59,519 nt of DNA from Frankiaceae bacterium (GTDB lineage: Bacteria; Actinomycetota; Actinomycetes; JAFAQI01). This document shows, piece by piece, positions 632 through 27,542 of this stretch; the first letter of the stretch is position 1, and every line of letters starts with the position of its first letter. Below the pieces are notes generated by a model that ran no database searches, was not told the DNA's origin, and was given only the letters and a program-made list of their open reading frames with translations. The translations under genes and the position numbers were made by a program. Where the stretch lies: positions 1-59,519 of the forward strand of contig JAFAZI010000135.1 of assembly GCA_019239875.1 (NCBI GenBank), in the 5' to 3' direction.

Positions 632-937
632 TTACTTGCCGACGATCGCGAGCACGTCGCGCGCCGACAGGATCAGGTACTCGTCGGCGCCGTACTTGAC
701 CTCGGTGCCGCCGTACTTGCTGAAAATCACGGTGTCACCCTCGGAGACGTCCATGGGGACACGCGAGCCGTCTTCGAAGCGGCCGGGGCCAACAGCGATG
801 ACGAGACCCTCCTGGGGCTTCTCCTTCGCCGTGTCCGGGATGACGATGCCTGACGCTGTGGTCTGCTCGCTGTCCTGGACCGAGACGACGATGCGGTCCT
901 CGAGCGGCTTGATGTTGGTCTTGGTGGCGGTGGCCAC
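632..937 (-). CDS. groES: Co-chaperonin GroES
   Basis: 10-kDa co-chaperonin that caps GroEL; 101 residues. KPLEDRIVV near the N-terminus, the mobile-loop region ([19 protein letters not shown]) and the C-terminal [15 protein letters not shown] are all typical. The GTG start at 937 is chosen because AGGAGG sits 8 bases upstream and the conserved fold begins there. The reading frame stays open for 37 more codons upstream, but that stretch encodes no GroES homology and crosses the upstream CIRCE. Its own CIRCE (972-998) and the following terminator make it a single-gene heat-shock unit ahead of groEL. Confidence 0.97.
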
Positions 938-1056: not shown

Positions 1057-1120
1057 CGCCAAACCGTCTCGAATCGTTGGTTCCTGACGCCCGAAACCAA
1101 CGATTCGAGACGGTTTGGCG
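1057..1120. repeat. Long palindromic intergenic repeat, family A copy 1
   Basis: A perfect 26-bp inverted repeat (1057-1082 with 1095-1120) around a 12-base loop. The core of each arm reads CCGTCTCGAATCGTTGGTT. The same element, longer by 12 bp per arm, recurs at 26153-26240. Here it lies between the 3' end of the 1178-1447 gene and the groES promoter, so it probably also terminates transcription arriving from the right. A short tandem duplication with a 25-base unit starting GGCGGTACGTCGCC (1117-1166) abuts it. Confidence 0.95.
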
Positions 1121-1177: not shown

Positions 1178-1447
1178 TCAGCCGGCGGCCAGGACGGCGT
1201 CAGGTACGGCGTCGAGCGAGCGGAGGATGGCCTCGGCGAGCTCTCTCGCCGCGGTGGGGTGCAGCTCGATCGCCACTCTCGCTGCGGGTCCCTCTGCCGG
1301 ATTGCGGAGGTCGATGTTCAAGGTGTGGCCGGCCATCGCGTGCACGGGGTGGTCGACGTAGACCTGGGCGTGCGTGACGCGCAGCCAGCTCGCCGGTCCC
1401 TTACCGCTGCCGGTGACCTCGAGGAACTCGGTCTGATAGGTGCACAC
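1178..1447 (-). CDS. Small conserved actinobacterial protein, DUF6295-like
   Basis: 89 residues with GTG start, no signal peptide or membrane segment. The pattern MCTYQTEFLEVTGSGKG, then YVDHPVHAMAGHTLNIDL, then a helix ending ARELAEAILRSL, resembles small actinobacterial proteins of the DUF6295 type. That assignment is from memory of the family and unchecked. The start lies 3 bases after the stop of the dienelactone hydrolase gene, so the two are co-transcribed and probably translationally coupled. The biochemical role is unknown; histidine-rich DHPVHAMAGH is the most notable stretch. Confidence 0.75.
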   Translation of the reverse strand: MCTYQTEFLEVTGSGKGPASWLRVTHAQVYVDHPVHAMAGHTLNIDLRNPAEGPAARVAIELHPTAARELAEAILRSLDAVPDAVLAAG

Positions 1448-4666: not shown

Positions 4667-4688
4667 CAGCCAACGCTAGTCGCCGCAA

Positions 4689-4763
4689 GCAATGTGGCAT
4701 CACCCGCCGTGAGAGCGAGCAATGCCACATCACTCGGCAAACAGCGAGGCAATGCCACATTGC
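4689..4763. repeat. Three 15-bp operator-like palindromes at 30-bp spacing
   Basis: Sites at 4689-4703 (GCAATGTGGCATCAC), 4719-4733 (GCAATGCCACATCAC) and 4749-4763 (GCAATGCCACATTGC). Each fits GCAATG-N3-CATYRC; the last is a perfect 6+3+6 palindrome. Starts are exactly 30 bp apart, about three helical turns, so the sites face one side of the DNA. They fill the 116-bp divergent space between tsaB and the plus-strand PH-domain genes. This is seen directly; a regulatory role is inference. Confidence 0.85.
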
Positions 4764-4782
4764 TTGAAGTAGGAATAGGGGC

Positions 4783-25183: not shown

Positions 25184-26125
25184 ATGCGTCCCTTCACATT
25201 CTCGGCAGACATCGGCGAGGTCGTCACCGGCGCGGAGCTCTCGGCTCGCGCCCGCCAAGCCGAGGACCTCGGCTACGCCACGGTCGTCGTGCCCGACCAT
25301 TTGCTGGGACGCCTGTCCCCCATCGCCACCATGGCAGCCGTGACCGCGACGACCACGACGTTGCGGGTCTCGGCCTTCGTCATGAACAACGATCTTCGTC
25401 ATCCCGCAGTCGTCGCCCAGGATCTTGCAATCATCGACGTGCTGTCCGGCGGCCGCCTCGACGTCGCGGTGGGCGCAGGGTGGAACCGTCCCGAGTACGA
25501 CGCGATCGGGCTGGCGTTCGACCCGCCGCCGGTGCGTCAAGCCCGGCTGGCCGAAGCCATCCAGATCCTCAAGCAATGCTTCAGCGGCGAGCAGTTCAGC
25601 TTCAACGGGGAGCACTACACGATCACTGAATTCACCGGCGGACCGGTGACGGCACAGCAGCCTCACCCGCCGTTCTTCATCGGCGGCGGCAGCCGTCGTA
25701 CCTTGCAGCTTGCCGCGAGAGAAGCCACCATCGTCGGCCTCGCACCACGCATCTCCTCCGCCGTCAGCGTTGACGCCAGATCGCTGACGCTCGACGCGAC
25801 AAGGGAGAAGATCGACTGGGTCAGGGAGGCGGCTGGTGACCGCTTCGCGGACCTGACGTTCAACATCTATCCGTCGGTGTGGCCGACCACCATCACCGAC
25901 GACCTGCGCGGCGAAGCGCGGCGCGTCGTCGACCATCTGCGCAAGCACACCGGGGTCGAGCTGACCGAGGCGGAGGTCATCGACTCGCCGCATCTGTTCA
26001 TCGGATCGATCGATCGCTTGGTCGAGAAGTTCCAGCAACTGCGGGAAGAGCTGGGCATCACCTCGATCATGCTCGGCGACATCGGCGAGCTCGCGCCGGT
26101 GGTCGCCCGCCTCGCCGGATCCTGA
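25184..26125 (+). CDS. F420-dependent LLM-class oxidoreductase
   Basis: 313 residues, TIM-barrel luciferase-like monooxygenase superfamily. FTFSADIGEVVTGAELSARARQAEDLGYATVVVPDHL opens the barrel; GGRLDVAVGAGWNRPEYDAIGLAF and PPFFIGGGSRRTLQLAAREA are typical of TIGR03621-type actinobacterial members that use deazaflavin F420. The substrate is unknown. A 38-bp palindromic repeat after its stop probably ends transcription and separates it from the amidohydrolase unit. Confidence 0.9.
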   Translation: MRPFTFSADIGEVVTGAELSARARQAEDLGYATVVVPDHLLGRLSPIATMAAVTATTTTLRVSAFVMNNDLRHPAVVAQDLAIIDVLSGGRLDVAVGAGWNRPEYDAIGLAFDPPPVRQARLAEAIQILKQCFSGEQFSFNGEHYTITEFTGGPVTAQQPHPPFFIGGGSRRTLQLAAREATIVGLAPRISSAVSVDARSLTLDATREKIDWVREAAGDRFADLTFNIYPSVWPTTITDDLRGEARRVVDHLRKHTGVELTEAEVIDSPHLFIGSIDRLVEKFQQLREELGITSIMLGDIGELAPVVARLAGS

Positions 26126-26152: not shown

Positions 26153-26240
26153 CCCACCCCTTTTCGCCCAACCGTCTCGAATCGTTGGTTTGAAGCGTCG
26201 CGAACCAACGATTTGAGACGGTTGGGCGAAAAGGGGTGGG
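26153..26240. repeat. Long palindromic intergenic repeat, family A copy 2
   Basis: A 38-bp inverted repeat (26153-26190 with 26203-26240) with one mismatch and a 12-base loop. The inner 26 bp correspond to the repeat at 1057-1120, with one base pair changed from A:T to C:G on both arms together. The single arm mismatch is a G.U wobble in plus-strand RNA, consistent with use as a terminator for the LLM gene. Confidence 0.95.
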
Positions 26241-26315: not shown

Positions 26316-27542
26316 ATGTCCGACCGGTACATGATCATCTCCGCCGACTGCCACGGCGGCGGCGCGATTCTCGACTACCGGCCCTACCTGCCGTCCAAGT
26401 GGCACGCCGCATTCGACGAGTGGGAGTCTTCGTACGAGATCCCGTACGAAGACATGAAAGGGCCGGACGGCGAACGCAACTGGAACTCCGACCGCCGACT
26501 GAAGGAGCTCGAGGCCGACGGCATCGTCGCGGAGGTGATCTTCCCCAACACCGTCCCGCCGTTCTTCCCCAAGGTCAGCCTCGCCGACCAGCCACCCGCC
26601 ATGTCCGCAGGCGACGTCGAAGCCCGATGGGCCGGCCTGCAGGCACACAACCGGTGGCTCGCGGACTTCTGCAACGACGCGCCCGGCCGCCGCGCCGGCA
26701 TCGCGCAGATCATGCTCCACGACATCGACGCCGCCGTCGCCGAGATCATGTGGGCCAAAGAGAACGGCCTGACCGGCGGTGTCCTGCTGCCAGGTGCGCC
26801 GCCGGGCTCTGGCCTCCCGCCGCTGTTCGACCCGAGCTACTACGAGCCGCTCTGGGCGATCTGCGCGGACCTCGACATGCCGGTCAACCACCACAGCGGC
26901 AGCGCCGCGCCAAACACCGGCGACCAGCCTGAGGACCAGGTGATCCTGATCCTGGAAGTCACGTGGTGGGCCCACCGGGCATTCACCCACCTCGTCGTCT
27001 CCGGCGCGTTCGAGCGCCACCCGAACCTTCATCTCGTCCTCACCGAGCAGGGCACTGCGTGGATCCCCGAGGAGCTCATGCGCCTCGACTACTTCTTCGA
27101 CCGGTTCCGCAACGCCACCGGCTCCCAAGAGGTCGAGTGGGGCCTGCCGGTCGTCGAGCGGATGTCGCTGAAGCCCAGCGAGTACTTCGCACGCCAGGTG
27201 TCGGTCGGCTCTTCGTTCATTCGTCCCGACGAGGTGAAGATCCGCCACGCCGTCGGCATCGACAAGATCATGTGGGGAAGCGACTACCCCCACAAGGAGG
27301 GGTCGATGCCGTTCACGCTGGAGGCGTTGCGCGCGAGCTTCGCCGGAATCGACCACGGCGAGGTCCAGACGATGCTGGCCGACAACGCGGCTGCCGTCTA
27401 CGGGTTCGATCTCGACGCACTGCGCCCACTCGGCGAGCAGATCGGCCCGCTCAAAGCCGAGGTCGACGTACCCCTGGCCCCACAGAGCCTTCCACCCGAA
27501 GCCGAGAGCTGCCCAGCACTCGTCGGGTTCAGCAAGCGCTAA
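26316..27542 (+). CDS. Amidohydrolase-2 family metal-dependent enzyme (1)
   Basis: 408 residues, ACMSD-like TIM-barrel family that includes hydrolases and non-oxidative decarboxylases. The N-terminal metal motif is reduced to ISADCHGGG, a D-x-H form rather than HxH; NHHSGS (about residue 195) and the late Asp motif MWGSDYPHKEG (about residue 320) are conserved. GGGGTAC upstream and family homology fix ATG 26316. First structural gene behind the palindromic operator. It is about 30% longer than ACMSD and a paralogue of the enzyme at 29249. Substrate unknown. Confidence 0.88.
   Translation: MSDRYMIISADCHGGGAILDYRPYLPSKWHAAFDEWESSYEIPYEDMKGPDGERNWNSDRRLKELEADGIVAEVIFPNTVPPFFPKVSLADQPPAMSAGDVEARWAGLQAHNRWLADFCNDAPGRRAGIAQIMLHDIDAAVAEIMWAKENGLTGGVLLPGAPPGSGLPPLFDPSYYEPLWAICADLDMPVNHHSGSAAPNTGDQPEDQVILILEVTWWAHRAFTHLVVSGAFERHPNLHLVLTEQGTAWIPEELMRLDYFFDRFRNATGSQEVEWGLPVVERMSLKPSEYFARQVSVGSSFIRPDEVKIRHAVGIDKIMWGSDYPHKEGSMPFTLEALRASFAGIDHGEVQTMLADNAAAVYGFDLDALRPLGEQIGPLKAEVDVPLAPQSLPPEAESCPALVGFSKR

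Follow-up and report, generated by a model that had tools for sequence, protein, structure and literature searches.

Dispersed palindromes at actinomycete gene ends are associated with the gene of an AbiEi-Vsr protein, a predicted nuclease

Introduction

Decades have passed since REPs and similar palindromes became known, and for those that lack a RAYT transposase, the CGTC-REPs among them, no mover is known. The closest described systems are the REPtrons, in which REP or REPIN palindromes are dispersed at the ends of convergent and codirectional genes, where they sometimes supply the stop codon, and in which the gene of the cognate enzyme, a RAYT (TnpA-REP), is flanked by the same palindromes. 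The elements described here share these traits. They differ in the enzyme, which is an HUH tyrosine transposase in REPtrons and a protein with an AbiEi and a Vsr-like nuclease part here, and in the repeat, which consists of two GTAG-tagged REPs of 20-40 bp in REPtrons and of one palindrome of 58-74 bp (mostly 62-64 bp) here. The CGTC-tagged REPs are also gene-end palindromes and have stems of 8-9 bp, loops of 4-5 bp and an unpaired CGTC tag, whereas the elements studied here have arms of 25-26 bp, a centre of 12-14 bp and no such tag (Di Nocera et al. 2013, PMC3733652). This review lists the CGTC-REPs as being without a transposase and makes no mention of Actinobacteria.

Two further systems resemble the protein. 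In the AbiE type IV toxin-antitoxin systems the antitoxin AbiEi is autoregulated and binds its own promoter at two inverted repeats of 23 bp, which are separated by 3 bp (PMC3985639). The protein found here has the AbiEi fold, and inverted repeats of about 23-25 bp with a fixed spacing are located close upstream of its gene, but the spacer is 12-14 bp long (25-13-25 versus 23-3-23), a nuclease domain is fused, a second palindrome follows the gene and copies are dispersed. The Vsr-like homing endonucleases, such as I-Bth0305I (PDB 3r3p), share the fold of the catalytic domain; the gene here differs in that it is free-standing, encodes an AbiEi domain and has palindromic flanks, and no intron was seen. 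In the part of the literature that was covered, no description of such elements or of their association with a nuclease was found, and a literature search with the sequence returned unrelated primer matches only.

Results

Two hairpins share a 64-bp palindromic unit

The window, i.e. the whole analysed stretch of 59,519 nucleotides from a Frankiaceae bacterium, contains the following features.

1057..1120, no strand assigned: copy 1 of the family A palindromic element, 64 bp, with arms at 1057-1082 and 1095-1120 and a variable centre at 1083-1094
26165..26228, no strand assigned: copy 2, the shared unit of 64 bp, with arms at 26165-26190 and 26203-26228 and the centre at 26191-26202
26153..26240, no strand assigned: copy 2 including its private extra pairing of 12 bp per side, C-rich on the left and G-rich on the right
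632..937, minus strand: Cpn10 (GroES) gene, the next gene downstream of copy 1
1178..1447, minus strand: DUF6295 gene, with its 3' end facing copy 1
25184..26125, plus strand: Bac_luciferase-like (LLM) oxidoreductase gene, which ends before copy 2
26316..27542, plus strand: Amidohydro_2 gene, the next gene downstream of copy 2

No other near-perfect inverted repeat in the window is as long as these two copies. The arms of copy 1 have 26 nt and are 100% complementary, those of copy 2 with the extra pairing (26153-26190 and 26203-26240) have 38 nt and are 97% complementary, and both enclose a loop of 12 nt. The first-pass annotation had described a common 26-bp arm core and 12-base loops of different sequence, and this was found again as the shared 64-bp unit. 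The A to C change in one arm that it had seen matched by T to G in the opposite arm is located at 1061 A and 1116 T in copy 1 versus 26169 C and 26224 G in copy 2. A one-sided change of copy 2, 26179 G opposite 26214 T, is absent from that annotation. The outer 12 bp of copy 2 are not a feature of the family, across which pairing between the outer flanks does not exceed that of shuffled partners.

As had been noted, each copy lies after a gene end: copy 1 is 57 nt past the stop codon of the DUF6295 gene and copy 2 is 39 nt past that of the Bac_luciferase gene. The predicted RNA hairpins are very stable (-51.8 and -80.0 kcal/mol). The lack of classic T-runs was also borne out: the T-run that follows the GC-rich stem of an intrinsic terminator was found at neither stem, and neither the window nor the related elements gave an Rfam 15 match above the gathering score. 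Two other repeats of the window were observed. A 20-nt hairpin at 570-613, between the groES-like gene and a gene ending at 535, differs from family A, and the inverted arms CAAGCAATGTGGCAT at 4686-4766, 51 nt apart, belong to a different repeat family, whose motif is repeated in the relative G001 (L104:363-441 and L107:16929-17007).

Family A is dispersed at gene ends of one genome

The genome of the window (G000, 4.15 Mb) contains 97 matches to the family A arm at up to 3 mismatches, compared to 0 for the reversed control pattern, and a covariance model detected 54 whole elements, each on both strands. A chance origin is therefore excluded. The same model found 0 family A elements in 12 other genomes of the order. 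All but 2 of the 50 aligned copies have a 12-bp spacer, and the mean identity among copies is 0.90 for the arms and 0.41 for the spacers. Changes on both arms were commoner than independence predicts at the arm positions -3 and +1 (p ≤ 0.0005), with a weak excess at position 6; part of the excess is subfamily structure. Of the 50 copies, 21 have the commonest arm variant, at position 17, on a single arm, and no copy has it on both. The genome search and the covariation check proposed by the first-pass annotation had been set against the outcome of only two copies with no covariation; instead, there are many copies, and the paired A/T to C/G change recurs.

The placement of the copies was determined with a custom coding-potential gene caller. 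The 49 placed copies lie between convergent (25), codirectional (23) and divergent genes (1), so that 48 have the extragenic position after genes that is a trait of REPs, mostly 0-50 nt past the upstream stop codon. In relatives the element often abuts the stop codon; where the gap is -6, the gene ends at a TGA of the element itself. The roughly 54 copies compare to several thousand gene ends in the genome. In sampled relatives, 15 gene ends orthologous to those with a copy were inspected, and none had a palindrome longer than 10 bp; the copies were therefore gained in this lineage. Target-site duplications as in MITEs were not found, with direct flanking repeats of 1.50 versus 1.47 in shuffled pairs. 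Insertion into terminator hairpins had no support, since the pairing of the outer flanks was not above that of shuffles. A separate observation is that the flanks are C-rich on the left and G-rich on the right to about 60-80 nt in all families looked at (L256-L264, L276-L285 and others), even at codirectional sites.

Related palindromes occur across the class

Other palindrome families, with the same build and different arms, were first found in relatives without covariance models, by a long-hairpin scan of random contigs. A covariance model made from the family TGATCTTGACG... (25-13-25 bp), a type of search that favours paired sequences, then gave hits in 29 of 297 genomes and 22 of 114 genera of the class. 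With this model a further family of G000, family B, was found, which has about 11 copies and looks older. Relatives of family A are present in two other families of the class. The related palindromes mostly have 62-64 bp (range 58-74 bp), and each genome has its own arm sequence or sequences. They are not built as a REP unit, a self-palindrome of 20-40 bp with an unpaired GTAG or CGTC tag: there is no GTAG tag, the single unit has 62-64 bp and single arms fold weakly (-0.6 to -6.7 kcal/mol; in family A a 5-bp stem with an 11-nt loop). The hairpins of the window are copies of a widespread and apparently undescribed kind of dispersed palindromic element.

When palindromes of the family A type were aligned across genera, both-side changes were observed at 23 of 26 pairs (78 cells versus 17.8 in shuffled alignments); a further count among related palindromes gave 10 of 25 pairs. 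In several genomes the similarity between copies ends at the edges of the element and the surroundings are unrelated. The copies of G179 are 97-98% identical over 66-68 bp, the spacer included, and occur in both orientations. Two species of one genus were compared at an orthologous dispersed site and at the orthologous locus of the partner gene described below; at both loci the inner arms are species-specific on both sides. Both arms were therefore replaced together, in place and genome-wide.

Copies in phages or plasmids were not found by blastn; one pattern match in a viral contig looked like unrelated AT-rich sequence. Other palindromes were noted in passing. Another family of about 64 bp, with CGTCTTCTGCCGCGKTGTGGGG arms, occurs in the order's other family (G012, L198:2940-3003 and L201:15571-15638). 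At L286-L290 of G241 the outer 17-19 bp pair, the inner arms do not, and the centre TGAACCGCGTTCA is self-complementary. In G006, two parS-like GTTTCACGTGAAAC sites are located 22 nt apart (L193:11278-11327).

The palindromes flank the gene of an AbiEi-Vsr protein

Some elements are paired at a distance of about 1 kb. The enclosed genes in G003, G008, G005, G204 and for both families of G000 encode homologous AbiEi-DUF559 proteins, in which an AbiEi-like winged-helix DNA-binding part is joined to a Vsr-like (DUF559/MTES_1575, homing-endonuclease-like) nuclease part. Proteins of this type were sought in 19 element-bearing genomes, and the flanks of 30 loci were scanned blind to the arm sequence. 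Palindromes were present on both sides of 16 of the 30 genes (13 strictly, and L326, L327 and L337 with the second palindrome just outside the strict window), compared to about 0.004 genes expected at the background rate of palindromes. The spacing is regular, with one palindrome 55-156 nt before the start codon and the other about 6-14 nt after the stop. A gene of this type is linked to every palindrome family that was sampled well. About 9-11 of the 30 related proteins are unflanked, and no flanked gene was observed among the loci examined in G004, G241 and G271.

Identity is 78-94% between the two palindromes that flank the same gene and 55% between those of different genes, and the similarity of the palindromes correlates with that of the proteins (Mantel r 0.51, 0 of 2000 permutations). 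Paralogues within one genome carry different palindromes, and the flanking arms match the dispersed copies of that genome. The association of the palindromes with the AbiEi-Vsr gene is hence, in our view, close to certain. The AbiEi-Vsr genes were the only gene family seen to lie regularly between palindromes, and no transposase was flanked by lone arms. Paired elements around a DEAD helicase gene, a cyclase-domain gene and a small lipoprotein-like gene occurred once each, and these genes were not treated as partners. A tblastn search of phages with the nuclease gave no match. A third AbiEi-Vsr gene of G000 (C204:24274-25143) is preceded, at a distance of 61 nt, by a 63-bp palindrome (L064:3151-3213) whose sequence is again a different one.

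For an independent test, three plasmid records were picked by protein search alone, and two of them have palindromes on both sides of the gene. In Tsukamurella tyrosinosolvens NZ_LR134454.1 the gene of WP_170181047.1 is flanked by palindromes of 62 bp each, and this palindrome is dispersed over 8 records of the strain; a second DUF559 gene of the record is not flanked on both sides. In Arthrobacter NZ_AP024649.1 the flanking palindromes have 53 and 57 bp. The third record, Arthrobacter NZ_AP024648.1 (L340), showed one weak palindrome on one side only.

The partner protein is predicted to combine an AbiEi fold and a nuclease

AlphaFold models of the family A and family B partners had a mean pLDDT of 93.6 and 92.8, respectively. 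In these predicted models the N-terminal part matched the AbiEi antitoxin (6y8q, Z 12.3) and Rv2827c (1zel, Z 8.4), and the C-terminal part matched the homing endonuclease I-Bth0305I (3r3p, Z 12.8) and Vsr (1cw0, Z 10.2). The AbiEi fold with its N-terminal winged helix was thus recovered, and PADLOC gave AbiEi hits in 22 of 23 members. In the motif SPxE..D..EYDG the acidic residues E192, D224, E235 and D237 are nearly invariant; with the PD-(D/E)XK/Vsr-like fold and these conserved residues a nuclease is predicted. The AbiEii nucleotidyltransferase gene that would mark an AbiE toxin-antitoxin pair is absent next to the gene in G003, located between hisG and infC, and at the same locus in G008. 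The gene linked to family A (C162 of G000) is flanked by diverged, partly decayed copies, and E235 is a D in its product; for these reasons, it may not drive the present majority subtype.

The paired changes point to symmetry of the DNA

The first-pass annotation had read the paired change as selection for pairing, in RNA or cruciform DNA. The paired changes themselves are real and general, within family A as well as between genera. The RNA part of this reading was not supported. On the transcribed strand of codirectional sites, G.U and A.C mismatches occurred 38:50 in the pooled families; the family A sites of G000 alone gave 14:8. G.U thus is not above A.C and no T-run is present, which disfavours selection of an RNA hairpin and favours a symmetry at the level of the DNA. 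In addition, the variant at position 17 is one-sided and the arm sequence itself is conserved. The cruciform reading is possible. Symmetric recognition of the double-stranded DNA by a protein, together with joint replacement of both arms, explains the paired changes better than RNA pairing. Joint replacement in place is therefore the best account of the compensatory change first seen in the window. Template switching between arms may contribute to the paired changes; it was rejected as the sole cause because it would not keep the arm sequence uniform across copies.

Discussion

The explanation that we favour as a whole, with reasonable though limited confidence, is that of dispersed palindromes with a linked AbiEi-Vsr nuclease, an arrangement like that of a REPtron. 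The protein encoded between two copies of a palindrome would spread the dispersed copies of the same palindrome. Its AbiEi-like part probably binds the palindrome, to judge from the precedent of AbiEi, and would contact both arms of the double-stranded DNA as an inverted repeat, with the upstream copy as the operator of the nuclease's own gene. The nuclease part would cut at palindromes or at target gene ends, and repair would then copy or convert the palindrome at the cut site. As both arms would have to be recognised, they would be replaced together, giving the paired arm changes. Spread driven by the nuclease is only somewhat favoured over its absence: no insertion footprint was found, which speaks against copying by the nuclease, and the spacers vary within family A of G000, which speaks against the copying of whole units.

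Could the palindromes instead be transcription terminators or 3' stabilisers of mRNA, bidirectional at convergent genes, with paired changes kept by selection for RNA pairing? Their narrow positioning behind stop codons or between converging genes, the very stable predicted hairpins and the mismatch ratio at the family A codirectional sites of G000 would fit this. The pooled ratio does not, nor do the missing U-tract and the G-rich sequence that follows the stems. Moreover, the arm sequence and not just its pairing is conserved, the spacer length is fixed, few of the gene ends carry the element and the orthologous ends are without it. Terminators would also leave unexplained why the genes of one protein family have a palindrome on either side, and we consider this explanation unlikely. 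We regard it as equally unlikely that the palindromes are sites of a regulon or of chromosome organisation, with the AbiEi-Vsr protein as a regulator or roadblock there and not as their mover. The AbiEi-like domain, with its known inverted-repeat operators (PMC3985639), the operator-like position of the upstream copy and the strict arms with free spacers agree with such a role. However, the copies were gained lineage by lineage, the arms were replaced genome-wide between sister species, and near-identical copies, the spacer included, lie in unrelated places; the conserved nuclease motif would have no role.

The size, copy number and gene-end bias of the elements are REP-like (PMC3733652), so that an ordinary MITE or REPIN/REP moved by a DDE transposase or a RAYT may also be considered, with the AbiEi-Vsr genes as cargo or frequent targets. 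Yet the Y1 (HUH) transposase PF01797 of a RAYT was absent from G000 and from 14 of 15 element-bearing genomes, with control genomes positive, the GTAG tag and target-site duplications are missing, and no other gene family lies regularly between the palindromes. This is the least probable of the explanations, and we think it very unlikely.

For the REPtron-like arrangement that we prefer, the consequences are as follows. The presence of compensatory changes in a hairpin is not by itself a sign of RNA structure. The tracking of a nuclease gene by the arms of the palindromes provides a concrete candidate mover for palindromes that have no RAYT, and it hints at what the AbiEi-DUF559 fusion proteins, very common in actinobacteria but unexplained, may do. 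We see an even chance that these elements are a new class of mobile DNA, in which an AbiEi-fused, Vsr-like nuclease would recognise, in double-stranded form, a palindrome of about 63 bp that is specific to the lineage, and would spread or convert its copies at actinomycete gene ends, by a mechanism unrelated to HUH, DDE, tyrosine and serine transposases. They would be such a class if the nuclease were shown to move the palindromes, and the public, named example of T. tyrosinosolvens makes the model directly testable.
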